The position numbers and the translations under genes were made by a program. The notes beneath the pieces are model-generated. The model had not been told where the DNA came from, searched no databases, and saw only the letters and a list, made by a program, of their open reading frames with translations. Positions 25,644 through 38,175 of a DNA stretch of 64,000 nucleotides are shown piece by piece (position 1 is the stretch's first letter; each line of letters begins with the position of its first letter). The DNA is from Novipirellula aureliae (lineage in GTDB: Bacteria; Planctomycetota; Planctomycetia; Pirellulales; Pirellulaceae): assembly GCF_007860185.1 (NCBI RefSeq), contig NZ_SJPY01000001.1:1405253-1469252 (forward strand), written 5' to 3'.

Positions 25644-26393
25644 ATGCTTTCTGTCGCAAGATTCACTCGATCGTTTGCCAGGGCACTCATCGGCTTGTCG
25701 CTCGCGACATCGCTAAGTCACGGCGAAGAACCTGCTCTCCCCGACCAACCCGCTCCTCGACTCGAGCCGATAGACCTATCGACACTGCCCGAATCGTCCG
25801 CGGAGATTGCGAAGTTGATTGAATCCGCACAGGTGCAGTTTGTCATTGGACCACGCCAAGATTCGGTGCGATCCGAACGATTTCGCACCTCAACGCTTCC
25901 CAATGGGCGTCCGGTCGCAGGGGTAACCGAGTATCGATTCGGCTACCACTTTCGCAGCTCCCATCGCTGGAAGACGAGCCGCGGTAGCAATCCAAAAATG
26001 AAGACGGTTACTGCCCGAGTCGAATATCGTGATCTGGGCGTGAGGTACGAGCACACGATATGGCTTGCCAAAAAGCCGAACCCTGACGACTTTTGGAGCG
26101 ACCGCGTGCTACTTCACGAACTCGATCACGTTCGCTTGTCGAGTGACCCCATGCTGGAAAGACGATTCATTGAAAAAGTGCTAGAAAAAACGGTATTTAC
26201 CATCCATCTCGAAGCGAATGCATCGCTCAAGGCCGCTCAGATTAACGAATTAGTCGACCGGCACGTAAAGGAATGCTTCGAGCAGATTGGTGAGCTAATC
26301 GCAGTCCGCTACAAGGAACTCGACCGGATTACCAATCATGGAATCTCGTCTTTTCCAAATGGATCGTCGCTCGAATCGTTATTGGAACGCTAA
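25644..26393 (+). CDS. Secreted protein with HExxH motif (putative zinc protease)
   Basis: 249 aa, ATG at 25644. It has a signal peptide (about residues 1-27), then a predicted beta-rich stretch with alternating polar/hydrophobic residues (VTARVEYRDLGVRYEHTIWL) and LLHELDHVRLSSD at about 157, an HExxH motif. This layout (beta strands, then HExxH in a helix) recalls secreted zinc proteases of the DUF922 type, but I cannot confirm the family. Likely periplasmic or secreted. The following PEP-CTERM protein gene is 157 bp downstream on the same strand. Confidence 0.6.
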   Translation: MLSVARFTRSFARALIGLSLATSLSHGEEPALPDQPAPRLEPIDLSTLPESSAEIAKLIESAQVQFVIGPRQDSVRSERFRTSTLPNGRPVAGVTEYRFGYHFRSSHRWKTSRGSNPKMKTVTARVEYRDLGVRYEHTIWLAKKPNPDDFWSDRVLLHELDHVRLSSDPMLERRFIEKVLEKTVFTIHLEANASLKAAQINELVDRHVKECFEQIGELIAVRYKELDRITNHGISSFPNGSSLESLLER

Positions 26394-26550
26394 GCAACCC
26401 GACAGACTGCAAATATTGAAATTTGTGGACTTTGCTCCCGCTTTGAATAGAATCGAAGCCCCAAGCGGCAGTGACAAACCGACGCGATCGCCGGCGTCAT
26501 GCTCTACGTCGTTCCAACAGCCACCTCTCTTCATCGATCAATCCATTCTC

Positions 26551-28065
26551 ATGAAACAGTTTTCTACATTTTTCCTCTTGATCCTGTCGTGCTTCGTCGG
26601 ATTTGCGTCGGCAGACTGGAAAGACGATATTGGTTTCACTCGTTTACAAACCGAACTCGGAGCGTCCACGCCGACTGGTGATGGCGTGGGTGTGTCGCAA
26701 GTGGAAGCAGGGTCGAACACCAACTACATGCCGGATACCACCAGCGGCCAGTTCACTGGCAAAGCCCTTGTCGACGCCACGGGCACGCAAGGTGCCAGCA
26801 GCTTTTCGCATGCGACGGGCGTGGCCAACGTTTTCTTTGGCAACACAGCCAGCATTGCCCCCGATGTCTCTTCGATTCGAAGCTATCAAGCGATCGATTG
26901 GTTGAACAACCAACTGGGATCCACAACTGGCACTGAGCCCGTTAGCCACACATTCTCGGATCTTGCCGAAACGATTCCACTGAAGGTTCAAAATCACAGT
27001 TGGGTAAGCCGACCGCCCGCGCGAGACGACTACGACAGCGATGCCGAATACGACGAGGCGGTGCTTAATGCCATCTCGGATTCAACCTTTATCTCGGAAC
27101 GCGTTGATTTTTTGGTCAATCGTGACGACCTACTCGTCGTCGGAGGCACGGACAACGGCAGTTCGAGTCCGCTGCCCTATCTACTAGCCCCATCTTATAA
27201 TTCGCTGATTGTGGGGCGAACCGATGGATCCCATGCGGCTGGAACCACCTCCTTTTACGGCAGCGAACGCTATCTGCCCCACATCGTCGCGTCAGGTGGT
27301 GTGACGAGCACTGCGACGCCGATGGTCGCGTCGACCGCAGCGATGCTGTACGAAGTTGCGGATGGATCCAACGCGGATCATGTCGAAACGATGCGCGCGG
27401 TCCTAATGGCCGGAGCGACGAAAGAAGAGTTTGTGACCTGGGATCGAACGACGACTCGACCGCTTGACGAACGCTACGGCGTTGGTGAAGTCAATGCTTA
27501 TAACAGCTACCAGATCATCGCAACTGACGAAACCGATGGCTCGTCCACGACCCCCACCCTTGTCGGTGAATATGGATACGATTTCGTCGAGACTGGCGAT
27601 CAGTCAATCGATTTTGATACGAATCCGATGCAGTATCAATTTGATGTGGAGTCCGGCTTCGAGATGGACGAATTGTCGATCTTTTTGAGCTGGAACATCA
27701 ACGTGCAAAATACGGCCGTGAATCCTGGCGACCTGAACACACAGGTGGATTTTACACCAGGCACAGGCGATTTGGCTAACTTGGATATGAAGTTGTTCGA
27801 TGCATCCAATATGCTGATCGATGAAAGCGTCAGTACGCTGTATAATTTCGAGCATCTCTATTTGACCGACTTGGTCGCGGGCTCGTACCGACTAGAGGTT
27901 TCGGGCGACCAGTTGGTGGATTATGGATTGGCGTGGCGATACTCGATCTCGGCAATCCCCGAACCCAACAGCTTCACAGCGTTAGCGGTCATCGGTTGCG
28001 GGCTATCCTTCCCCCGCCGCCGACACAGCTCGGTAAGAGGTCGTCAAACCCGCCGCAATCCTTAA
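26551..28065 (+). CDS. Subtilase-like protein with PEP-CTERM sorting signal
   Basis: 504 aa from ATG 26551, where the signal peptide MKQFSTFFLLILSCFVGFAS begins (the frame is open to 26338). Subtilisin landmarks are visible: the Asp-strand region GDGVGVSQVEAG with Glu where Asp is expected, a His-like SSFSHATGVANVFFGN then APDV, and GGVTSTATPMVASTAAML matching the Ser region GTSMAxP. The C-terminus ends in IPEPNSFTALAVIGCGL and Arg residues, a PEP-CTERM anchor processed by exosortase. A surface protein with possible proteolytic activity; the altered Asp position makes activity uncertain. Exosortase is not in the window. Confidence 0.75.
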   Translation: MKQFSTFFLLILSCFVGFASADWKDDIGFTRLQTELGASTPTGDGVGVSQVEAGSNTNYMPDTTSGQFTGKALVDATGTQGASSFSHATGVANVFFGNTASIAPDVSSIRSYQAIDWLNNQLGSTTGTEPVSHTFSDLAETIPLKVQNHSWVSRPPARDDYDSDAEYDEAVLNAISDSTFISERVDFLVNRDDLLVVGGTDNGSSSPLPYLLAPSYNSLIVGRTDGSHAAGTTSFYGSERYLPHIVASGGVTSTATPMVASTAAMLYEVADGSNADHVETMRAVLMAGATKEEFVTWDRTTTRPLDERYGVGEVNAYNSYQIIATDETDGSSTTPTLVGEYGYDFVETGDQSIDFDTNPMQYQFDVESGFEMDELSIFLSWNINVQNTAVNPGDLNTQVDFTPGTGDLANLDMKLFDASNMLIDESVSTLYNFEHLYLTDLVAGSYRLEVSGDQLVDYGLAWRYSISAIPEPNSFTALAVIGCGLSFPRRRHSSVRGRQTRRNP

Positions 28066-28146: not shown

Positions 28147-28626
28147 ATGCCGATCGATCCGAAACAGACTTGCTATTACAAACGGGCTCGATTTACGACG
28201 CGTTTGCCAATAAACCGAATCTATGATCCAGGGCACTTTTGGCTCGAAGAGATCGAAAAAAATCTGTATCGTGTCGGTTTTACTAAATTTGCTACTCGTA
28301 TGCTGGGTGATTTGGTAGAGATCAATTTTGATGTTACACAAAACGACGCGGTGTCGATTGGCCAGGTAATCGGAAGCATTGAAGGTTTCAAAGCGATTTC
28401 CGATATTTATAATAGCGTCGGCGGAGTGATCACCCAAACCAACGGTTCGCTCGATCGCGACCCCACACTTCTCGATCGTGACCCCTACGACGCGGGTTGG
28501 CTGTACATGGCCCGGGGGACGATTTCCTCAGCGAGTCTCGATTTGCAAGGGTACATCGCTCTGCTTGACACCACCGTTGACCAAATGCTTAACCATCCTT
28601 CGACTGAAGAGCAGAACCATTGTTAA
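28147..28626 (+). CDS. GcvH-like lipoyl carrier protein
   Basis: 159 aa from ATG 28147 (TTG 28105 is also open). It follows the glycine-cleavage H-protein pattern: GHFWLEEIEKNLYRVGFTKF, MLGDLVEINFD, IGSIEGFKAISDIYNSVGG with the lipoyl lysine at about residue 82, and DPYDAGWLYMARG. It is about 30 residues longer than GcvH, mostly N-terminal. None of gcvT, gcvP or lpd is present. It is the first gene of a nine-gene block with Fe-S, radical SAM and terpenoid genes, so it is more like the lipoate-binding LbpA proteins of sHdr systems than a housekeeping H protein. That reading is inference. Confidence 0.8.
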   Translation: MPIDPKQTCYYKRARFTTRLPINRIYDPGHFWLEEIEKNLYRVGFTKFATRMLGDLVEINFDVTQNDAVSIGQVIGSIEGFKAISDIYNSVGGVITQTNGSLDRDPTLLDRDPYDAGWLYMARGTISSASLDLQGYIALLDTTVDQMLNHPSTEEQNHC

Positions 28627-29744
28627 AATCGCGTTACCTGATGATCGGCGGTTTTTTGGGCGCTGGTAAAACCACGTCGGTTGTACGACTCGGGAAAATG
28701 ATCCACCAGCGGCAGCTTTCGGTGGGGCTAATCACAAATGATCAAAGTATCGGATTGGTCGATACGCGGCACCTCCGGTCGGAAGGTTTCGAGACCGAAG
28801 AGATCACCGGCGGCTGCTTTTGTTGCAAATTCAATTCCTTGGTCCAGGCATCCGACAAACTATCATCCGCGGATCGGCCCGATGTATTTATTGCCGAGCC
28901 AGTCGGTAGCTGTACCGATCTACAAGCCACCGTTAGCTATCCGCTACAGACGATGTTTGGCGACCAATTCGTCGTTGCGCCCTACAGCGTGCTACTCGAT
29001 CCGCTGAGAACTCGGCGAGTTTTAAAACTTGATAGCGGCAAGACGTTTTCTGCCAAAGTTCTTTATATCTTCGAGAAACAGCTTGAAGAGGCGGAATTGC
29101 TGGTTATCAACAAATGTGATCGGATCGATCGTGAAAGGATTGACGAACTAGAATCCGCTTTACGACAAAGATTCCCCGAAAAACAGATTTTACGTGTGTC
29201 GGCCCGCAGCGGCGAAGGATTCGAGCAGTGGCTATCGCTGCTAATGGAAACCGAGGCGACAATGACCGATTCGATGGAGCTCGACTATGACGAGTACGCC
29301 GAAGGGGAAGCACTTCTGGGCTGGCTCAATCTGTCCGCAGAGATTGAATCGTCGGCAACCACCGATGGAGAATCGATTGATGGAAACAAGTTGGTTGTTC
29401 AACTAGCGACCAAAATCGCCCGTCGCTTGGAAGCGGACCAGATCGAGATCGCTCACCTGAAGATGACGTTGACTCCGGACAGCGGGAACGACTTAGCCGT
29501 CGGCAACCTGGTCCGAACGGATGGACTGTTCGAACTCTCGCACGAGTTGGTTGAACCGCTCGATGCGGGAGAATTACTGATCAACCTTCGCGCCGAGGCC
29601 GCCCCCGAGCGATTGCGAACGATTGTCGAAGAAGACCTCCAGACGCAGTGCCGTCGGTCGTCGATCGAATTCACGATCAACCATGCGGAAGCGTTTCAAC
29701 CAGGCCGCCCCACCCCTACGTATCGCATGCCGGAGCCGAAATGA
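28620..29744 (+). CDS. CobW/G3E family GTPase
   Basis: 374 aa from TTG 28620, overlapping the upstream stop by 7 nt; ATG 28641 is inside the first strand and is less likely. Walker A GGFLGAGKTT, metal-binding GGCFCC (the family CxCC site) and NKCD specify a G3E GTPase. Such proteins insert or deliver metals (Zn, Ni, Co) to client proteins. C-terminal part is acidic and unlike the usual CobW_C. Here it may mature a metal enzyme of the same operon, but the client is unknown. Confidence 0.85.
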   Translation: MLKSRYLMIGGFLGAGKTTSVVRLGKMIHQRQLSVGLITNDQSIGLVDTRHLRSEGFETEEITGGCFCCKFNSLVQASDKLSSADRPDVFIAEPVGSCTDLQATVSYPLQTMFGDQFVVAPYSVLLDPLRTRRVLKLDSGKTFSAKVLYIFEKQLEEAELLVINKCDRIDRERIDELESALRQRFPEKQILRVSARSGEGFEQWLSLLMETEATMTDSMELDYDEYAEGEALLGWLNLSAEIESSATTDGESIDGNKLVVQLATKIARRLEADQIEIAHLKMTLTPDSGNDLAVGNLVRTDGLFELSHELVEPLDAGELLINLRAEAAPERLRTIVEEDLQTQCRRSSIEFTINHAEAFQPGRPTPTYRMPEPK

Positions 29745-30118
29745 GCCCCCCCAATTCCCCAACGATTTTGTACTGCCACTGCGCCTATGCTAAAGTCATC
29801 CCAGAGGACGTCAAATCGGCGGTGCTAAAAGGACTAATCGATTCGGGTACCGATTTCGAATCCGTACCCGATCTGTGTGAGATGTCAGCCCGCCGAGACC
29901 CGGTAATGCAGCAATTGTCAGAGTTGCCGAACCTGCGAATCGCCGCCTGTTACAAACGAGCGGTAATGGGATTGTTCGAAGCGGCGGATTGTAGCCTTGC
30001 CAAGACTCCCTCTCCGCAGGGTGCGGAACCGCAGGTGGTCAACCTACGCGTCACCAACCAAGACGATGCGTTGCAGCAATTGCTCGCACCGCTCGATCAA
30101 GAGGGAGCCAACCAATGA
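29741..30118 (+). CDS. Small Cys-rich protein resembling the HdrA N-terminal domain
   Basis: 125 aa, ATG at 29741, overlapping the CobW gene by ATGA; its own stop overlaps the next start by ATGA. ILYCHCAYAKVIPEDVKSAV, then VPDLCEMSARRDPVMQQL and LRIAACYKRAVMGLFEAADC match the pattern seen at the start of heterodisulfide reductase HdrA (CHCG..., MCS, VVAACSPR). Four cysteines plus a CHC pair suggest Fe-S or disulfide chemistry. The HdrA FAD domain is absent. Function is not known; the comparison is by motif pattern. Confidence 0.6.
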   Translation: MSPPNSPTILYCHCAYAKVIPEDVKSAVLKGLIDSGTDFESVPDLCEMSARRDPVMQQLSELPNLRIAACYKRAVMGLFEAADCSLAKTPSPQGAEPQVVNLRVTNQDDALQQLLAPLDQEGANQ

Positions 30119-30927
30119 TTGCTGCAAATCAGGCGAAACCGTGGCTGACGATCGAGGGATCGCAGTATCGAAACGGGATAGACGGTGAGAAGGACGCTGA
30201 GCAGATGGCACAGCTCCTCAGAGCTCTGCTTGAACGCGGGTTCCCGGTGGCCGTGACTCGGACGGATCCGCAAGAAACCCCCGCGAACAGCCTACGGATC
30301 AAAAGCCCAACGTTCCTTGTCGAAGGCGCCGAGACGCCGGTTGATCAACTCGTCGAAGAGATCGAATCACGGACCCAAGAGCAACTGGGGGAGGTGACGA
30401 CACGCAAGTGGAAACCTTGGTTTCCCGTCATCGACATGGACCGTTGCACGAACTGCATGCAATGCCTGAGTTTTTGTTTGTTCGACGTCTACTCCGTGAC
30501 GGAGGACAAGAAAATCACGGTGCAAAACGAGGACAATTGTAAAACGGATTGTCCCGCCTGTTCGCGTGTTTGCCCCGAGGTGGCGATCATGTTTCCGAAA
30601 TACAAGGCGGCGCCGATCAATGGTGATGAGGTGAGCAGCGACGACACTCGCCGAGAAGCGATGAAAGTCGATATCTCATCCCTGCTTGGCGGTGATATCT
30701 ACGCCCTGCTAAGAGACCGTAGCGCGAAAGCCAAGTCGCGTTTTTCGGCCGAACGTGATGACGACCGCGCACTGCGAGAACGTCAGCGTTGTCTAAAAAA
30801 ACTGCAAACAATGATGGAGGATCTCGATATCCCACCCGAGGTATTGAGCTCGCTGCCAAGTGATGAAATGATTCGCGCCAAAGCAGCTGCAGCGCAGCAA
30901 AAAGCAGCCAACACACCTGACCAATAA
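30115..30927 (+). CDS. Ferredoxin-type protein with two [4Fe-4S] clusters
   Basis: 270 aa, ATG 30115. Residues of about 111-121 have CTNCMQCLSFC and about 140-150 have CKTDCPACSRVC, two cluster-binding sets. The N-terminal 100 residues form a separate domain without cysteines, and a charged C-terminal helical tail (about residues 200-270) follows the clusters. Likely an electron carrier to or from the redox partners in this operon, possibly the radical SAM enzyme. Translation is coupled to the upstream small protein (ATGA). Confidence 0.85.
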   Translation: MIAANQAKPWLTIEGSQYRNGIDGEKDAEQMAQLLRALLERGFPVAVTRTDPQETPANSLRIKSPTFLVEGAETPVDQLVEEIESRTQEQLGEVTTRKWKPWFPVIDMDRCTNCMQCLSFCLFDVYSVTEDKKITVQNEDNCKTDCPACSRVCPEVAIMFPKYKAAPINGDEVSSDDTRREAMKVDISSLLGGDIYALLRDRSAKAKSRFSAERDDDRALRERQRCLKKLQTMMEDLDIPPEVLSSLPSDEMIRAKAAAAQQKAANTPDQ

Positions 30928-30980
30928 CGCAACGTCGTACTCCTTCCCTTCATCGCTCCACCACTCAAAAAAACCTGCTT

Positions 30981-32177
30981 ATGTCCGTCACTCTCAAGTT
31001 GGCTCGTCGAATGATTCAAGGCCGCGACATGCGGATCCTTTGGAAATTCGGCTGGAATTTCGGGTTTAAGGGCATGCGTTCTGTTCAAAAGTTTAAACGC
31101 AGGCTGAAGGACGGAATTCACTTTCCGCCATTCATTTTCATCTCGATGATCAACTCCTGCCAATTGCGGTGTACCGGTTGCTGGGTCGATGTTTCATCGA
31201 AGCGGCAAATGATCGAACTCGATGACATGAACCGCATCATTACGGACGCCAAGAAGCATGGGAACAGCTTTTTTGGTTTGCTTGGCGGTGAACCCTTTAT
31301 GCACCCGAATCTATTGGAGGTGTTGGCTGCTCATCCTGATTGTTACTTTCAAATCTTCACGAACGGGCATTTGATCACGCCGGAAACCGCCAAGGAACTT
31401 CGTCGCCTTGGCAATGCGACGGTACTCATCAGTATCGAAGGATCAGAGATTGTCAGCAACCAGCGTCGCGGCGGTATGGACGTACTCAATAAGACCATGG
31501 AAGGACTCCAGAACGCCGTCCGTGAAAAACTGATCGTCGGTGTCGCAACGAGTGTCTGCCAAACGAACATTGACTTAGTCGACGAAAATTGGCTCCGCAA
31601 ATTGATCGATATGGGGGTCATGTACGCTTGGTTTCATACCTACCGGGTGATCGGACCGTTGCCCGAACCGAAACTGGCGCTGACTCCCAAGCAAGTGCTG
31701 GACGTCCGTCGTTTTGTCGTGAATATGCGAAAAAAACTACCGATCGGCTTGGTCGACGCTTACTGGGACGACAAGGGGCAAGCTCTTTGCCCGATGGCAA
31801 CCGGCGTCAGCCATCATATCGGTCCATCGGGAGCGATTGAACCTTGCCCAATCATCCAATTCGCCAAGGATTCGATCCACGATTCGGGTGGTTTGTACGA
31901 GACGATGACTCGGTCGGAGTTTTTGAGTGATTTTCGTACCGAAGCGGCCAAGGCGACACGCGGATGCATTATCCTAGAAAGGCCAGACATCGTAAGCGAT
32001 CTCGTGACCAAGCACGGTGCGTCCGATACGACCCAGAGGCAAACGGCATTTGTTGAACTCGAGTCGTTGCTACCGAGATCGAGTCAGCACTTGCCTGGTG
32101 AAGAGATTCCGGAAGAACAGTGGATGTACCGTTTTGCCAAAAAACACTGGTTTTTCGGTTTCAATGCATACACTTAA
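30981..32177 (+). CDS. Radical SAM enzyme, possible lipid- or peptide-modifying type
   Basis: 398 aa, ATG 30981. CxxxCxxC at about residues 60-67 (SCQLRCTGCW) binds the [4Fe-4S] cluster; GGEPFMHPNLLEVLAAHP is the SAM-binding GGE motif. A C-terminal region has CPMATGVSHHIGPSGAIEPC, a Cys pattern like a partial SPASM/twitch auxiliary site. It recalls HpnH-type lipid-tailoring enzymes in being next to a cyclase, but the CxxxCxxC surroundings differ and I do not call it HpnH. Short N-terminal basic/aromatic stretch could contact membrane. 53 bp after the ferredoxin gene. Confidence 0.82.
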   Translation: MSVTLKLARRMIQGRDMRILWKFGWNFGFKGMRSVQKFKRRLKDGIHFPPFIFISMINSCQLRCTGCWVDVSSKRQMIELDDMNRIITDAKKHGNSFFGLLGGEPFMHPNLLEVLAAHPDCYFQIFTNGHLITPETAKELRRLGNATVLISIEGSEIVSNQRRGGMDVLNKTMEGLQNAVREKLIVGVATSVCQTNIDLVDENWLRKLIDMGVMYAWFHTYRVIGPLPEPKLALTPKQVLDVRRFVVNMRKKLPIGLVDAYWDDKGQALCPMATGVSHHIGPSGAIEPCPIIQFAKDSIHDSGGLYETMTRSEFLSDFRTEAAKATRGCIILERPDIVSDLVTKHGASDTTQRQTAFVELESLLPRSSQHLPGEEIPEEQWMYRFAKKHWFFGFNAYT

Positions 32178-32239
32178 GTCCTCCGAGTCGCAGACCGTGG
32201 GCAAACTTGCCGAGAATTTCGCGGCGAAAAACGCACGAG

Positions 32240-32263
32240 GATCGCAACTTAGAAGTTACGATC
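32240..32263. promoter_or_regulatory. 24-bp near-perfect inverted repeat before the prenyl synthase gene
   Basis: GATCG-C-AACTT-AG-AAGTT-A-CGATC: ten of eleven possible pairs. It lies in the only gap (179 bp) inside the nine-gene block, 94 bp before the next start. No U-tract follows, so it looks more like an operator or RNA hairpin than a terminator. Confidence 0.5.
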
Positions 32264-32356
32264 ATCGACCCATTTTCGCCGCATGCGGTTGGATCTCGCC
32301 TTTCAGAAGTCTTGAATGAGTCTAACGTTCCCGATTATTTTCGCTCTAGGTGATTG

Positions 32357-34105
32357 ATGTTTAAGTTGAATGTGATTGAACTACCGCGTGCCGTCCCGGT
32401 TCAGAAACAAAGAAAGCCGAAAGAGAATATCCCACAGACGCTCAGCGAACGGGAACGGATGCGAGTCGAAGTCGCTAGATTTGTCGCAGAGCGAAACCCC
32501 GTTCCGCCACTGGACCAATCGGAACTTCGCGGCTTGGCCGATGACTTCATGGCACAACACGCGTGGCCTGAAATCTATGCTGATTACGCTGGCGTCATAA
32601 TCAACGGCGAAGTTTGGAAGGATACGTTGGCGTCGGTGCCGTTCAACCGGCGGTTGTTGCTGCTTCCTAAATGCTTGAGGATCGAGGACAAATGCCCAGC
32701 CCCGTTCGATGAATTTGGGCTGCTGTGCAAGCAATGCGGACTCTGTTCGATTCAAGACTTACAAGAGGAAGCCGAACGTTTGGGGTACGCGGTATTGGTC
32801 GCGGAAGGATCGGCGCTTGTGATGGCGATCATCGAGACGGGAAAGATCGAAGCGATCGTCGGTGTCAGTTGTTTGTCGGTTCTCGAAAAAGCATTCCCCT
32901 ATGTGGAATCCGCGGCGATCCCCGGGTTGGCGATTCCACTGCTTCAAGACGATTGCAAAGACGTGACAGTCGATTTGGAATGGATTTGGGAGGTTATCCA
33001 CCTGCATTCGGATGACCGAACCTACCGCTTGGATCTCGATGCTTTGCGTACCGATGTGCAAAGCTGGTTTAACGAGCCGACAATCACTCAAATGCTTGGG
33101 GATCCGATTTCGCAAGCGGACACGATAGCTCGGGATTGGTTGTCCAAAGACGGTAAACGATGGCGACCGTTCTTGGCCGCCTGTGCTTGGAAAGCGTTCC
33201 AGGGTGAATCACAAACGCCCCCCCCCGAGGATTTGAAACGGTTAGCGATCGCGGTCGAATGCTTCCACAAAGCCTCACTTATTCATGATGATATCGAGGA
33301 TGATGACGCGCTGCGTTACGGTGAAGCGACGCTGCATGAGCAATGCGGGGTGCCGATGGCGCTTAACATCGGAGACCTTCTTATCGGGGAAGGGTATCGT
33401 TTGATCGGCGAATGTGACCTGCCGCCGGACCGTTTACGAGCGGTTTTGCGATCGGCGGCACAAGGGCATCGCATGTTGAGTATCGGGCAAGGCGAGGAAT
33501 TGAGTTGGATGCGTTCACCACGACCGTTGTCTCAGCTAGAGGTGTTGGACATTTTCCGCCGCAAAACGTCTCCCGCATTCGAGGTCGCGTTGCAACTCGG
33601 AGCGATTCTCGGTGGCGCTGACGACGATGTTTTGGATCTGCTCACTCGGTATAGTGATTCGCTTGGCGTTGCCTATCAAATCCGAGACGATCTAGAGGAC
33701 TTTGACAGCGAGCATTATTTAACCGACCTCCAAAGGATTCGGCCAAATTTGCCGTTGGCGCTGTTGTATGAGCGGACGATCGCAAAACCGGAACAACGGA
33801 AATTGGTCGAACGCGTTTGGAATCGCGAAAGCAGCCGCGAAGAACTACAAGCGGTGCGTGCAATGATGGACGAGTTCGGAATTCTCGAACGCTGCCAAGT
33901 TCTACAAGAATCATTCAAAGAACAATCGCTTCGGATTTTGGCGGAATTAACATCGCCGAGTTTGAAAGGTTTACTTCGCCGTGTCGTGGGCAAAATTTTC
34001 AGTTTGGAAGTAAAGGGTTGGTGCGGTGAATCTGAGACTCGAAATGGTTCAAGTAGCGAGACTCGCGCCACAGATCCTCGGCAACTCGACTCCCCTCGTG
34101 GTTGA
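32357..34105 (+). CDS. DUF116 fused to polyprenyl diphosphate synthase
   Basis: 582 aa from ATG 32357. N-terminal half (about 60-215) is DUF116: LLLLPKCLRIEDKCPA, LLCKQCGLCSIQDL (Cys cluster, about 104-135), VLVAEGSALVMAI, and a final AIPGLAIPLLQDDC. C-terminal half (about 240-560) is an all-trans isoprenyl diphosphate synthase with HDDIEDDD at about 310 (first Asp-rich motif), and YQIRDDLEDFD at about 443 (second). It should condense IPP units onto an allylic primer. The fusion of these two domains is unusual; DUF116 Cys residues suggest an Fe-S or metal site. The end overlaps the next gene by about 80 nt. Confidence 0.85.
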   Translation: MFKLNVIELPRAVPVQKQRKPKENIPQTLSERERMRVEVARFVAERNPVPPLDQSELRGLADDFMAQHAWPEIYADYAGVIINGEVWKDTLASVPFNRRLLLLPKCLRIEDKCPAPFDEFGLLCKQCGLCSIQDLQEEAERLGYAVLVAEGSALVMAIIETGKIEAIVGVSCLSVLEKAFPYVESAAIPGLAIPLLQDDCKDVTVDLEWIWEVIHLHSDDRTYRLDLDALRTDVQSWFNEPTITQMLGDPISQADTIARDWLSKDGKRWRPFLAACAWKAFQGESQTPPPEDLKRLAIAVECFHKASLIHDDIEDDDALRYGEATLHEQCGVPMALNIGDLLIGEGYRLIGECDLPPDRLRAVLRSAAQGHRMLSIGQGEELSWMRSPRPLSQLEVLDIFRRKTSPAFEVALQLGAILGGADDDVLDLLTRYSDSLGVAYQIRDDLEDFDSEHYLTDLQRIRPNLPLALLYERTIAKPEQRKLVERVWNRESSREELQAVRAMMDEFGILERCQVLQESFKEQSLRILAELTSPSLKGLLRRVVGKIFSLEVKGWCGESETRNGSSSETRATDPRQLDSPRG

Positions 34106-34958
34106 TTTCTTCGCCCAACAACGGCATCCCGATGGCGGCTTCCGCGATCGCGCAGGCAACAGTGATCTGTACTATAGCGTCTTTGGGATCGAGGGCTCCC
34201 TTGCACTTCAACAGACCCTTCCGGCCGATTGGTTGCTCTCCTACGTCCGCTCCTGCAGTCGCAATCTTGCTAGCTTGGACCTCGTCCATTTGTCTTGCCT
34301 GGCAAGATGCTGGAACGCTGCGGCGACCCATTCTCGAGGGGCCTGCCCGGTGGAGGAATTGGTCGACGAAGTTTTGAAATATCGCGGCGCCGACGGCGGC
34401 TATCGCCTTGGTCACGAAGGTGAAGCGTCGAGCCTTTACGGATGCTTCGTCGCCGTAGGTGCGTTCCAAGATCTCGGATACCCGATCCCTCATCTCGATT
34501 CATTGCTCGATTTTGTTACTTCACTACGAGACCCTCGTGGCGGATATTACAATTCACTCGACATGCCCATCTCGCTCGCTCCGCAAACCGCAGGAGCGGT
34601 CGGATTGATGAGATCCGTTGGCCGGCTTGAGTCGATGGAGCGGGCAGCCGAGTGGCTGCTGAGCTGCTTCCATCCCCAAGGAGGTTTTTGCGTCAGTGAA
34701 TTGATGCCAATCCCTGATCTTCTTTCAACCGCAACGGTTCTTCATGCACTGGCGGCATTGAAAGTGGACGTCGACGTCGAAATCAGCGAATTATGCCTCG
34801 ACTTTATCGACAGTCTCTGGACCAATCGCGGCGGTTTCTACGGACAATGGGAGGATACCCATGCCGATGTGGAATACACTTTTTACGCACTGCTTGCCCT
34901 CGGCCATCTCTCGGTAATGCCAACAGCAAGGATTCGGAACGAGGATTCGGAAGGATGA
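34026..34958 (+). CDS. Prenyltransferase/squalene-oxidase-repeat protein without Zn ligands
   Basis: 310 aa from GTG 34026; ATG 34044 is the alternative. It shows repeated alpha-alpha-barrel motifs (FFAQQRHPDGGFRDRAGNSD, then GADGGYRLGHEGEA, RDPRGGYYNS, HPQGGFCVSE, TNRGGFYGQWE). It resembles the beta subunit of protein prenyltransferases, but the expected zinc ligands Cys and His are missing (PDLLSTA and DVEYTFY at the matching sites) and no DXDD is present. It may be a non-catalytic partner of the downstream cyclase or a different prenyl-binding enzyme. ATGA overlap with the next gene. Confidence 0.75.
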   Translation: MNLRLEMVQVARLAPQILGNSTPLVVDFFAQQRHPDGGFRDRAGNSDLYYSVFGIEGSLALQQTLPADWLLSYVRSCSRNLASLDLVHLSCLARCWNAAATHSRGACPVEELVDEVLKYRGADGGYRLGHEGEASSLYGCFVAVGAFQDLGYPIPHLDSLLDFVTSLRDPRGGYYNSLDMPISLAPQTAGAVGLMRSVGRLESMERAAEWLLSCFHPQGGFCVSELMPIPDLLSTATVLHALAALKVDVDVEISELCLDFIDSLWTNRGGFYGQWEDTHADVEYTFYALLALGHLSVMPTARIRNEDSEG

Positions 34959-37033
34959 TTGGTCGGAGTTTCGCAAACCAATCGCCGGAAAGCGAGACGA
35001 GGGTCGATGCAAATTCGTTTACCTCCGCGATCTACCAAACCCGGCGGTCGCTTGCCGAGCAAATCACAGCCGATGGCCACTGGGAAGGGCACCTGTCGTC
35101 AAGCGCGCTCGCGACCGCGACCGCCGTCATTGCACTCGAGCAATTTGTAAAACACTGTCAAGCATCGTTGACAGAGAGATCTTCCCGTAAGGCGTTTGCT
35201 GCAAAACAGCGAAAACGTTTCGACGATTCCACCGAGCAGAAGAAAAGGTTTGACGAGGATCGCCACGTTTGTAGCGAAGACGATTTAAAGGATTGTCGAG
35301 AACGATTGAATGCTGGACGTCGCTGGTTGATCGAGACTCAGAACGAGGATGGGGGATGGGGTGATTCGGTTCTTAGTTCAAGCAACATCAGTACAACCGC
35401 ATTGGTTTGGGCTGCATTGGCGGATCACGATGCACCGCCGAAGGACGCAAGCCGGATCCGCGCCGCGGAAGCGAAATGCGAACGCTGGATCCAACGCATC
35501 GCGGGCTCACTTGAGCCCGACGAAATTGCCGAGGCGATTTCTCAACGCTACGGGCGTGACCGTACGTTTTCGGTCCCCATTCTGACCACGCTTGCAATCC
35601 GCGGACGATTGGGAAGAAAACAAGACGCCTGGCGGCAGATTGTCCAACTGCCCTTTGAAGTGGCTGCATTACCCCATCAATGCTTTGCGATCGCACGACT
35701 TCCCGTGGTTAGCTATGCGTTGCCAGCACTCATCGCGATGGGACAACTTCGGCACCAGCGTTTGCCATCCCGAAATCCCTTCGCACGGATCGCCCGAAAA
35801 TTGGCCTGGAAAACGACTCAGCGAAAACTGGAAGAAATCCAGCCAACTGGCGGCGGCTTTCTGGAAGCGACACCCCTGACTAGCTTTGTCGTGATCGCAT
35901 TGTTGGCGTGCGAAGCAACGCCTTGGCGAGTCATTCAAAATGGAATCCACTTTATCGTTGCATCGGCACGGCCCGATGGCTCTTGGCCAATCGACACAAA
36001 CCTAGCGACCTGGACCACAACACTCGCTGTCAATGCACTGGCTGTCAATTCACTGGCGAAAGAGAATTCCACAGCTCCGCATGATCTGTATTGCTCCGAA
36101 ACGGTCCGCCAATGGTTGCTCGCCCAGCAATACACGACCGAGCATCCGTTTACACACGCTGCGCCGGGCGGCTGGGCGTGGACCGACTTGGCCGGTGGCG
36201 TCCCCGATGCCGATGACACCTCGGGCGCGTTGTTAGCACTGAAAAAGCTCTCCGGCGAGAACGACTTATCGGCTGCCACCGCTGGACTTCAATGGTTGGC
36301 TCAACTTCAAAATCGAGACGGAGGCATGCCTACCTTTTGCCGAGGCTGGGGAACACTGCCATTCGATCGTAGCAGCTGTGATATTACCGCGCATGCAATC
36401 CGCGCATGGGTCGCCTGGATCGATCACGTTCCACCGAAACTCCAAAAAGTCCTGCGCAAAGGCATCCGCCGTGGCGAACGCTATCTGGCTTCCCAACAGA
36501 GCCAATCAGGATTCTGGTCTCCGCTTTGGTTTGGAAATCAACACGCCTCGCCCGAGGAAAATCGCGTCTATGGCACCTCTCGAGTCCTCCTGGCAATTGC
36601 GGATCTGCTCATGGACTCGACATCATCAAGGAGCAACTCTCCCGATGAAATCCTGTCGCGAACGAAGATCAATTGGCAGGCTGCGGTCGAATGGCTACGG
36701 TCGATTCAGAACGACGACGGTGGATGGGGTGCCGACCGGGCGATTCCCTCCTCGATCGAAGAAACCGGCTTGGCCGTCGAAGCGTTGGCGGCAATTTGGA
36801 TGGTTATCGATCGTCAAACTCTCGGTCGCAGCACCATTGACCGAAACGAGATACGCGAGGCGGTCGAACGTGGCATCAACTTTTTGATCGATCGGACCGC
36901 TGGGGGGACGCAGTTTCCCGCTTCCCCGATCGGTTTTTATTTTGCCAAGCTTTGGTATTTCGAACGCTTGTATCCGGTCCTCTACACCCTTGCCGCTCTC
37001 GAAAAATCGTCTGTGATGCTGAATTCGCCATGA
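34955..37033 (+). CDS. Squalene-hopene-cyclase-family class II terpene cyclase
   Basis: 692 aa from ATG 34955 (ATGA overlap, GGAAGG ahead); the frame is open to 34793 but the earlier part is the shadow of the upstream gene. QW-type repeats are visible (LIETQNEDGGWGDS, WLAQLQNRDGG, YLASQQSQSGFWSP, WLRSIQNDDGGWG). The catalytic acid motif is PDADDTSGALLAL at about 416-420, the DXDDT of class II cyclases. The C-terminus (FYFAKLWYFERLYPVLYTLA) matches the SHC end. It should protonate and cyclise a polyprenoid. No squalene-synthesis genes (hpnC/D/E, sqs) are in the window, so the substrate may be a polyprenyl or other linear terpenoid. Confidence 0.88.
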   Translation: MIGRSFANQSPESETRVDANSFTSAIYQTRRSLAEQITADGHWEGHLSSSALATATAVIALEQFVKHCQASLTERSSRKAFAAKQRKRFDDSTEQKKRFDEDRHVCSEDDLKDCRERLNAGRRWLIETQNEDGGWGDSVLSSSNISTTALVWAALADHDAPPKDASRIRAAEAKCERWIQRIAGSLEPDEIAEAISQRYGRDRTFSVPILTTLAIRGRLGRKQDAWRQIVQLPFEVAALPHQCFAIARLPVVSYALPALIAMGQLRHQRLPSRNPFARIARKLAWKTTQRKLEEIQPTGGGFLEATPLTSFVVIALLACEATPWRVIQNGIHFIVASARPDGSWPIDTNLATWTTTLAVNALAVNSLAKENSTAPHDLYCSETVRQWLLAQQYTTEHPFTHAAPGGWAWTDLAGGVPDADDTSGALLALKKLSGENDLSAATAGLQWLAQLQNRDGGMPTFCRGWGTLPFDRSSCDITAHAIRAWVAWIDHVPPKLQKVLRKGIRRGERYLASQQSQSGFWSPLWFGNQHASPEENRVYGTSRVLLAIADLLMDSTSSRSNSPDEILSRTKINWQAAVEWLRSIQNDDGGWGADRAIPSSIEETGLAVEALAAIWMVIDRQTLGRSTIDRNEIREAVERGINFLIDRTAGGTQFPASPIGFYFAKLWYFERLYPVLYTLAALEKSSVMLNSP

Positions 37034-38175
37034 GTGCTTCCTATTTAGACCATTGTTCCACAACGCCGATCGACCCGAGAGTTCAACGCGAAGTCGTACG
37101 TTGCTTCCAAGAACTCTATGCCAATGCGTCGAGTCCGCATGAACTCGGACGCCACAGCAAAGAACAGGTGCATCGGTCACGAGACGTAATTGCAGCGGTC
37201 GTATCCGCCCGCAAACATGAAGTAATCTTCACCTCGGGGGCGACAGAAAGCAACAATTTGGCGATCCTCGGTTTGGCTCCCTATGCTCAGCAGACCAACA
37301 AGAAGCATATCGTCACAACGAGCATTGAGCACAAATCGGTACTCGAACCACTCCGCGAACTCGCTCGCCAAGGTTTTGAAATCACTCGAATCGACGCTGA
37401 ACCAAGTGGTAGGATCCCGGTTCAAATGATCGTTGATGCAGTCCGTGAAGACACCATTCTTGTTTCACTGATGCACGTCAACAACGAAACGGGAGTGATC
37501 CAACCGGTCCACTCGTTAGCCGATGCCCTTTGCGAGCGTAAAGGCGTTTTTCTACATGTCGATGCAGCCCAAGGTTTCGCGAAAGAGGCTGAGCAAATCG
37601 ATCACCCTCGAATCGACCTCTTGAGTGTCAGCAGCCACAAGCTTAACGGTCCGCTAGGCGTCGGAGCGTTGATCGCTCGCAAACGAGGTTCCGAAGTGAT
37701 TCCATTATCGCCATTGATGTTTGGCGGTGGCCAGGAATTAGGGCTTCGACCAGGAACGTTGCCAGTCGCGTTGATCAGTGGTTTTGCGTTGGCGGTACAA
37801 TTGGCTCAAGAAGAGCGAGAACGGCGGAGTGCTCATTGCCAGAAACTTCGAGAAATCGTTCTGGAAAAACTAGCCATTCTAAGACCGATCGTGCATGGCG
37901 CCCCCGAAACAACTTTGCCTCATGTTTTGTGTGCCTCGTTTGCCGGACTAGACGCCGAACGGGTGATCGATGAACTAAGCGATATCGCAGCTATCTCAAC
38001 CGGGTCGGCCTGTACGTCCATCTGTGCGACGAGCAGTCACGTCTTGAATTCGATGGGGGTTCCCGCGTCAGACTCCGATTCCGCAGTGCGGATCTCGTGG
38101 AGTCATGTGACGGATCAAGCGGAGCTAATCGAAACACTTGATCGCATTGTGTTCAAGTTGAACCGTCTAAAATAA
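37030..38175 (+). CDS. Cysteine desulfurase (IscS/NifS-like)
   Basis: 381 aa from ATG 37030, ATGA overlap with the cyclase gene. Family features: YLDHCSTTPID at the N-terminus, TSGATESNNLAILG, MHVNNETG, HVDAAQGF, SSHKLNGPLG with the PLP lysine at about 204, and TGSACTSI with the persulfide Cys at about 328. It makes persulfide sulfur from cysteine. No iscU, iscA or tusA-type scaffold follows, so it is likely dedicated to this operon: Fe-S cluster supply, or a direct sulfur donor for the product or lipoyl protein. The last is speculation. Confidence 0.93.
   Translation: MSASYLDHCSTTPIDPRVQREVVRCFQELYANASSPHELGRHSKEQVHRSRDVIAAVVSARKHEVIFTSGATESNNLAILGLAPYAQQTNKKHIVTTSIEHKSVLEPLRELARQGFEITRIDAEPSGRIPVQMIVDAVREDTILVSLMHVNNETGVIQPVHSLADALCERKGVFLHVDAAQGFAKEAEQIDHPRIDLLSVSSHKLNGPLGVGALIARKRGSEVIPLSPLMFGGGQELGLRPGTLPVALISGFALAVQLAQEERERRSAHCQKLREIVLEKLAILRPIVHGAPETTLPHVLCASFAGLDAERVIDELSDIAAISTGSACTSICATSSHVLNSMGVPASDSDSAVRISWSHVTDQAELIETLDRIVFKLNRLK

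Follow-up and report, generated by a model that had tools for sequence, protein, structure and literature searches.

A nine-gene cassette of Novipirellula aureliae, shared with other phyla, for the probable synthesis of a ring-shaped terpene-like lipid with iron-sulfur proteins and a lipoyl carrier

In this study, we show that nine co-directional, mostly overlapping genes of Novipirellula aureliae (Planctomycetota) stay together in two phyla and, largely, in more. They lie in a 64,000-nucleotide stretch of DNA (NCBI RefSeq assembly GCF_007860185.1, contig NZ_SJPY01000001.1, positions 1,405,253 to 1,469,252 of the forward strand), hereafter the window, whose numbering is used below. Together they probably build a ring-shaped, terpene-like lipid with the help of iron-sulfur (Fe-S) proteins and of a lipoyl carrier that resembles the glycine cleavage H protein (GcvH). 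The original prediction, made on the first four genes only, had proposed a subcluster of a GcvH-like carrier, a CobW protein, an HdrA-N-like protein and a ferredoxin with the logic of sHdr sulfur oxidation and its lipoate-binding protein LbpA, possibly repurposed for lipid chemistry. We found these four reading frames in that order on the + strand (28147-30927), but the limits drawn around them were too short, as the set runs past 30927 to 38175 with five further genes on the same strand. The link to lipid chemistry is borne out by a polyprenyl synthase and a squalene-hopene cyclase (SHC)-type cyclase among these five. The nine genes of the cassette (28147-38175) are:

28147..28626, + strand: GcvH-like lipoyl-carrier protein, 159 residues, with lysine K82 (Pfam GCV_H 2.3e-20)
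28620..29744, + strand: CobW-family GTPase with a GGCxCC motif (Pfam cobW 4.5e-22)
29741..30118, + strand: stand-alone HdrA-N-like protein, 125 residues, with C12, C14, C46 and C70 (alignment, profile comparison, structure model)
30115..30927, + strand: ferredoxin-like protein with two 4Fe-4S motifs and a flanking N-terminal region (Pfam Fer4_6 5e-06, other Fer4 models)
30981..32177, + strand: radical S-adenosylmethionine (SAM) protein with CxxxCxxC and the invariant C270, C289 and C329 (Pfam Radical_SAM 3.5e-15)
32357..34105, + strand: DUF116 domain fused to a polyprenyl diphosphate synthase (Pfam polyprenyl_synt 1.1e-39, DUF116 2.1e-32)
34026..34958, + strand: prenyltransferase-like alpha-alpha toroid protein (Pfam Prenyltrans 5.1e-13; PDB matches)
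34955..37033, + strand: squalene-hopene-type (class II) cyclase with DADDT (Pfam SQHop_cyclase_C 5.4e-27)
37030..38175, + strand: IscS/NifS/DndA-type cysteine desulfurase (TIGR03235, 428 bits, cut-off of 480 not reached)

Of the eight junctions, six are overlaps of 4 to 80 bases (4 to 7 for the three among the first four genes), and two are gaps of 53 and 179 bases. A scan of a genome collection with the DUF116 fusion returned 440 stretches encoding a relative, some of them perhaps plain prenyl synthases, and the best 80 loci were kept: 33 from Planctomycetota, 25 from Acidobacteriota, 13 from Verrucomicrobiota, 6 from Lentisphaerota, 1 from Poribacteria and 2 unassigned. Many of these lie on short contigs, and counts were also made in a long-flank subset of 48, in which the sequence extends at least 7 kb ahead of the start of the fusion and at least 5.5 kb onward from it. 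All nine genes are present in 34 of the 80 loci when either strand is counted, and in 29 (18 acidobacterial, 11 planctomycete) on the strand of the fusion; the complete one-strand set is found in 24 of the 48 long-flank loci. Gene by gene, on the fusion's strand, 46 of these 48 hold the ferredoxin, 45 the toroid, 44 the HdrA-N-like protein, 40 the radical-SAM protein, 37 the carrier, 37 CobW, 36 the cyclase and 26 the desulfurase. The eight genes other than the desulfurase stand together in 27 of them, including one verrucomicrobial and one unassigned locus, and Verrucomicrobiota and Lentisphaerota carry near-complete or reduced sets. Among cultured bacteria, Aeoliella straminimaris ICT_H6.2 has all nine genes, and Sulfidibacter corallicola has the set with its radical-SAM and desulfurase relatives on the opposite strand. 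Since the genes recur in other phyla, mostly in the same order and at about 28-80% identity, the cassette is not a chance arrangement.

Among ten HdrA-N-like loci examined (out of 42 positive genomes, and with the present genome included), CobW, ferredoxin and radical-SAM neighbours were found within 3.3 kb in all ten, and the carrier gene within the same distance in nine. Carrier and CobW genes are both present in 35 of the 48 long-flank loci, both absent from nine and found singly in four. As the nine loci devoid of both still keep the ferredoxin (7/9) and the HdrA-N-like gene (5/9), the carrier-CobW pair looks dispensable in some lineages; the radical-SAM gene is kept in four of the nine. 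Clustering of the flanking frames returned the nine families, many frames lying over them, and few non-overlapping clusters, those examined being a ligase, an ABC ATPase, a beta-propeller, a radical-SAM protein and others. A different radical-SAM protein of 553 residues stands between the ferredoxin and the fusion in one locus (L076:8314-9975) that has no match to the usual cassette radical-SAM gene; its cluster comprises six loci, with one member annotated.

The lysine near residue 82, on which lipoylation had been predicted, is a constant feature of the carrier: all 32 rows aligned, chosen from 49 known, have both E79 and K82, which are kept in at least 90% of the 49. The protein scores under both NCBIfam GcvH cut-offs (79.9 of 117 and 71.4 of 115.85 bits), and a stronger, separate GcvH is encoded elsewhere in the same genome, which we searched for further family members (7.27 Mb, 40 contigs). 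Likewise, each of 15 further genomes searched has one strong GcvH and at least one weaker. A PDB search with the carrier gave 13 matches, all GcvH, and a tblastn search of plasmids gave 29 records, with GcvH in every one that had a named match. In a tree of 70 rows, from which duplicates (L156, L157, L161, L167, L168) had been removed, 38 cassette carriers form a single group (support 99/100). Adjoining it are seven GcvH-like proteins from genomes with a sister system described below (union support 97/80), three of them encoded beside the sister fusion and four elsewhere in the genome, and the 22 GcvH rows and two LbpA-like rows stand apart. The two LbpA-like rows fall among GcvH in the best tree; a constrained clade of carriers and LbpA is not rejected by the approximately unbiased (AU) test (p 0.212), a comparison that involves only these two rows and a long branch. 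A long-branched GcvH-like protein of genome G084 (L177) fits neither group. In this phylogeny, which the original prediction had put forward as a check, the carrier stands apart from housekeeping GcvH and is not shown to be LbpA.

In LbpA, two cysteines are conserved, near the N- and C-terminus, with exceptions in archaea (PMC6067878). The LbpA of genome G117 and the LbpA-like carrier of G084 have both. Cassette carriers lack them as a set: 7 of 49 have a cysteine among their first 30 residues, and 10 of 49 have a C-terminal one. The latter is striking in the Pirellulales clade and was considered as a sulfur or prenyl site, a role we rejected: its codon overlaps the CobW start in nine of the ten cases, and it is thus probably a by-product of coupling. 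In the window the overlap of the final carrier codon with the CobW start (28620-28626) favours a C-terminal cysteine in this clade.

How the carrier might be loaded is suggested by a family of LplA-like ligases in the flanks (PF21948 4.9e-26; TIGR00545 54-87 bits, cut-off 280). By profile search, such a gene is divergent from and adjoins the desulfurase-carrier end in 14 of the 25 acidobacterial loci (for example L025:4197-4817). An unlinked member of the family is encoded in N. aureliae (L212, C10:168725; 38% identity over 190 residues, E 9.9e-36, 188 bits with the profile), as are a second, more distant ligase-type gene and, elsewhere in the genome, LipA. Because the LplA-like gene adjoins acidobacterial cassettes and has a relative in this genome, a ligase of its own for lipoate or octanoate probably serves the carrier.

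The CxC and AC..R pattern first noticed in the small protein proved to be a family trait, as all 54 aligned relatives share C12, C14, C46, C70 and the AC..R further on. The corresponding cysteines of HdrA N-terminal domains of Planctomycetota are C9, C11, C44 and C69. Pfam and NCBIfam gave nothing over cut-off for the protein, with a weak match to PF22415 (14.1 bits of 27, E 0.048). Among the NCBIfam models, HdrA is the one matched by most of the 54 members, that is by 5 of them (best E 0.012); other models are matched by fewer members, one at a lower E than HdrA. Profile comparison with hhalign was marginal against 11 HdrA rows (probability 6 to 8; none of 300 permutations as high, the best just below). 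Against 31 HdrA rows it gave a score of 28.1 over 95 columns (probability 45.5; E 2.1e-4, for a single comparison), which none of 400 column permutations reached (best 24.7; reversed 16.4), and CxC was laid over CxC with the last cysteine in register. The claimed likeness to HdrA therefore survives its profile check, with four cysteines in register. The family profile found no match among PDB sequences up to E 10. An AlphaFold model (predicted local distance difference test, pLDDT, 89) matched the HdrA chains 7bkd_A and 8rvu_A at Z 5.9 and 5.8, in ranks 8 and 11 amid many unrelated Rossmann-like chains, and Foldseek with the same model gave no match at E 0.001 or better. Altogether, the small protein is a probable remote homologue of HdrA-N. 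According to PMC9012536, the N-terminal domain of HdrA holds a cluster by its own cysteines and one from a partner subunit; a list of HdrA domains is given in PMC12054007. The HdrA-N-like protein and the ferredoxin are encoded in one open frame in 12 loci and thus belong together.

The ferredoxin, whose Pfam matches Fer4_6 and Fer4_2 are barely above cut-offs, has eight cluster cysteines, each conserved in at least 90% of 64 rows; C66, C68 and C69 of the CobW GGCxCC motif are conserved in at least 90% of 51. In the radical-SAM protein, CxxxCxxC, C270, C289 and C329 are invariant in 12 of 12 aligned rows (67 known) and kept in at least 90% of the 67; its best PDB relatives are BlsE and SkfB, and neither LipA nor LipS is among its 25 best NCBIfam models. 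Desulfurase relatives were found in 44 of the 80 loci, in seven solely on the other strand. The gene closes the cassette (3' end) in most planctomycete loci and opens it (5' end) in most acidobacterial ones. A part in Dnd phosphorothioation, considered as the desulfurase scores best with DndA, was set aside on a score under the cut-off; dnd genes were not searched for.

In the lipid half of the cassette, D418, D420, D421 and H480 of the cyclase are invariant in 12 of 12 aligned rows, and its DxDD motif (DADDT) and the histidine align with SHC (PDB SHC match 1.5e-35). No other protein of the genome matches SQHop_cyclase_C strongly (2.9e-19 for the cyclase in the genome-wide search, the next being 2.9e-7), and the cyclase reaches 88.6 of the 431.1 bits of the NCBIfam SHC equivalog cut-off. 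The polyprenyl synthase is one of three in the genome. In such synthases the residue five before the first aspartate motif governs product length; since it is an alanine here, kept in at least 90% of 81, the product would by this rule be longer than farnesyl. The DUF116 part has seven cysteines, invariant in 57 of 57 aligned rows, which probably form an Fe-S site. As for the toroid protein, its PDB matches are class II cyclases and the beta subunit of Rab geranylgeranyl transferase (GGTase); aligned by eye, it has leucine and tyrosine at the positions of two of the three GGTase zinc ligands, which we take to include a cysteine and a histidine there.

We also identified a diverged sister system. 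DUF116 is present in 35 of 40 close relatives, this genome counted (34 over cut-off), and the HdrA-N-like protein, sought with a single query in 60 genomes, was found in five only, all among the 40. Sixteen regions were fetched, of which three hold the present cassette and 13 the diverged form (L124-L134, L136, L137). In the latter the fusion is 31-38% identical to ours, the SHC-type cyclase 38-43% in 12 of the 13, the radical-SAM protein 56-59% in five and the toroid 28-32% in four; three have a GcvH-like gene and a ferredoxin. An HdrA-N-like domain was not found in the sister-system proteins (profile E 0.52 at best). Three of four regions partly read gene by gene (L126, L130, L131) carry extra genes, not all in each, among them those for a HemN-like radical-SAM protein, an iron alcohol dehydrogenase, a beta-propeller, a flavin oxidoreductase and a glycosyltransferase. 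Right after the sister fusion in L130 (7625-8173) and L131 comes a protein of about 190 residues with no Pfam or NCBIfam match, perhaps chorismate-lyase-like. Both forms occur in one of the 40 genomes, the present form only in four, another DUF116 only in 30 (13 region-checked) and neither in five, a near-exclusivity with a Fisher p of 0.006 when kinship is ignored. The two genomes of the same genus as the present one differ, one having the sister form and the other no DUF116. The two forms may replace each other.

Taken as a whole, we consider it rather likely, on the strength of the gene content and its conservation, that the cassette encodes a dedicated isoprenoid-cyclising pathway in which the four genes flagged at first are an electron- and sulfur-delivery arm. 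The DUF116-fused synthase would make a prenyl diphosphate longer than farnesyl, which the DUF116 part and the radical-SAM protein would modify; the toroid protein would bind or present the chain, and the SHC-type cyclase would protonate and cyclise it through DxDD. The HdrA-N-like protein and the ferredoxin would deliver low-potential electrons, and the carrier, lipoylated on K82 by an LplA-like ligase, would swing electrons, sulfur or a bound intermediate from one partner to another. Finally, the cysteine desulfurase and CobW would provide sulfur and metal for the Fe-S enzymes. A more specific proposal, that the lipoyl protein and the free-standing HdrA-type domain drive a radical-SAM/DUF116 step on the prenyl chain before cyclisation, for instance sulfur insertion or deep reduction, so as to give a new class of terpenoids in several phyla, must be seen as tentative; it has gained slightly in plausibility because the ligase family was found beside the cassette.

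Several observations speak against this pathway. The complete one-strand set was seen in Acidobacteriota and Planctomycetota only, and many long-flank loci are without the cyclase, carrier, CobW or desulfurase (present in 36, 37, 37 and 26 of 48). Five of the seven desulfurase matches on the other strand are just 29-32% identical. By profile search the LplA-like ligase is found in none of the 55 loci outside Acidobacteriota and is not in the window. Fold searches with a DUF116 model gave generic Rossmann-like matches only, and an HpnC/HpnD-like pair (our own naming) encoded elsewhere in the genome keeps squalene as a possible substrate of the cyclase. Product, expression and lipoylation are all predictions. 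For the carrier, the main choices are an electron/sulfur arm and a substrate carrier, and none of our results separates these roles.

The second of these choices deserves some attention, although we hold it to be clearly less probable than the delivery arm. The GcvH-like protein would itself bear an acyl or prenyl group on K82, and the radical-SAM protein would act on that group in the way LipA acts on octanoyl-domains. K82 stands in an invariant context and is itself invariant, the operon also encodes the radical-SAM protein, with its additional invariant cysteines, and a desulfurase that could rebuild a sacrificed cluster, and the LplA-like ligase beside 14 of the 25 acidobacterial loci fits as well. 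However, the radical-SAM protein is closest to BlsE and SkfB in the PDB, with no LipA or LipS in its 25 best NCBIfam models, LipA is encoded elsewhere in the genome, and the radical-SAM gene persists in four of the nine loci that are without carrier and CobW. Further from the evidence, a bacterial protein prenylation in which the toroid attaches the prenyl chain to the carrier would make sense of the relation to Rab GGTase beta, of the prenyl synthase in the operon and of the C-terminal cysteine in this clade. That cysteine is absent in 39 of 49 carriers and overlaps the CobW start codon in nine of the other ten, and the toroid, aligned by eye, has leucine and tyrosine for what we take to be a zinc-binding cysteine and histidine, so that we regard this reading as highly improbable. 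Scarcely better is a second GcvH, or one-carbon carrier, placed by chance beside terpene genes. The carrier does belong to the GCV_H family with its lysine, and 13 of 13 PDB matches are GcvH, but it is under both NCBIfam cut-offs in a genome with a stronger, separate GcvH, has its own clade (99/100) and recurs inside the cassette.

The original suggestion of a stripped sHdr-type module, with the carrier as an LbpA holding sulfur for an Hdr remnant, now seems unlikely, if marginally less so since the ligase result. It draws on an HdrA-N-like protein, a GcvH-like carrier and a cysteine desulfurase in one operon, on the LplA-like ligase near the 14 acidobacterial loci, sHdr loci having dedicated lipoate ligases (PMC6067878), and on a joint clade of carriers and LbpA that is not rejected (AU p 0.21). 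Against it, the LbpA cysteines are absent as a set, the two LbpA-like rows fall among GcvH in the best tree, this genome gave no HdrA2-type match at E 1e-30, and a genome with a clear sHdr cluster holds the cassette too. No hdrA, hdrB or hdrC was found among the cassette genes or the non-overlapping flank clusters examined, where small clusters were judged by their first residues, and no LipS gene recurs in the examined flanks. Because no HdrB/C or LipS was found linked to it, the LbpA cysteines are absent and the carriers form their own clade, though a grouping with LbpA is not rejected, the cassette, judged on its genes, is probably not an sHdr system. Thus, of the sHdr/LbpA-like logic first proposed, the lipoyl part has gained from the ligase and the sHdr membership is not supported.

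The clear sHdr cluster just mentioned lies in a planctomycete genome, G117 (L178:4195-11765), with HdrA-, HdrB-, HdrC-, DsrE2- and LipS2-like genes (LipS2 201 bits) and LbpA. The second LbpA-like row is encoded in G084, with an HdrA-like match at a distance of about 10 kb. The cassette is present in these two genomes as well (loci L180, with all nine genes, and L179, with eight). Furthermore, HdrA2-type genes of Planctomycetota (L088-L094) contain in-frame TGA codons, one in six of the seven and two in L090, perhaps for selenocysteine.

Around the cassette, a search of the window with Rfam at gathering scores gave one tRNA as its sole match, and no glycine riboswitch upstream. Promoter-like sites number 5 against 6.0 expected; terminator-like sites number 21 against 13.3 expected (standard deviation 3.7), scattered across the operon and both strands, and we give them no interpretation. 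Immediately upstream lies a subtilase-like gene (26338-28065), with a tail that we take to be PEP-CTERM-like; the open frames of the 80 loci contain no relative.

Returning to the isoprenoid-cyclising pathway that we favour, a set of nine genes ordered in two phyla, and largely in others, should yield one compound or serve one process. The cassette provides context for DUF116, for a stand-alone HdrA-N domain and for an orphan-looking family of lipoate ligases. If its product is a terpenoid lipid, the cassette could be of importance both to the membranes of Planctomycetota and Acidobacteriota and to lipid biomarkers. If the more specific proposal made above, of a lipoyl- and HdrA-driven step on the prenyl chain, is true, it would be, to our knowledge, the first case in which terpenoid synthesis uses an Hdr-derived domain and protein-bound lipoate. 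Our full-text literature searches brought up no paper that we recognised as describing the cassette.

Compared with known systems, the carrier shares with the glycine cleavage H protein a fold family and the lysine in E-G-x-K, but forms a separate clade under the curated cut-offs. The small protein has a cysteine spacing of 2-32-24, against 2-33-25 in the N-terminal domain of HdrA, and the two share A-A-C-x-P-R and N-x-R patterns. Unlike HdrA, it stands alone or in one frame with the ferredoxin, without FAD domain or HdrB/C, and the relation is detected at profile level only. As in sHdr systems with LbpA (PMC6067878), a GcvH-like carrier with its lysine stands beside an Hdr-like Fe-S protein, with an LplA-like ligase near some loci; the cassette differs by its link to terpene genes, by the absence of the LbpA cysteines and in that no HdrB/C or LipS was found linked. 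The closest parallel to the lipid half is class II terpene cyclisation as carried out by the hopanoid SHC, which like the cassette combines a prenyl synthase and an SHC-type cyclase with DxDD. The C35 pathway of Bacillus is of the same kind, with a prenyl synthase and an SHC-type cyclase. The core of the cassette is thus of a known kind, and the redox and carrier arm upon it is without description in the literature searched. Unlike hopanoid-type pathways, the cassette has its synthase fused to DUF116 and adds genes for a radical-SAM protein, an HdrA-N-like protein, a ferredoxin, a carrier, CobW and a desulfurase.

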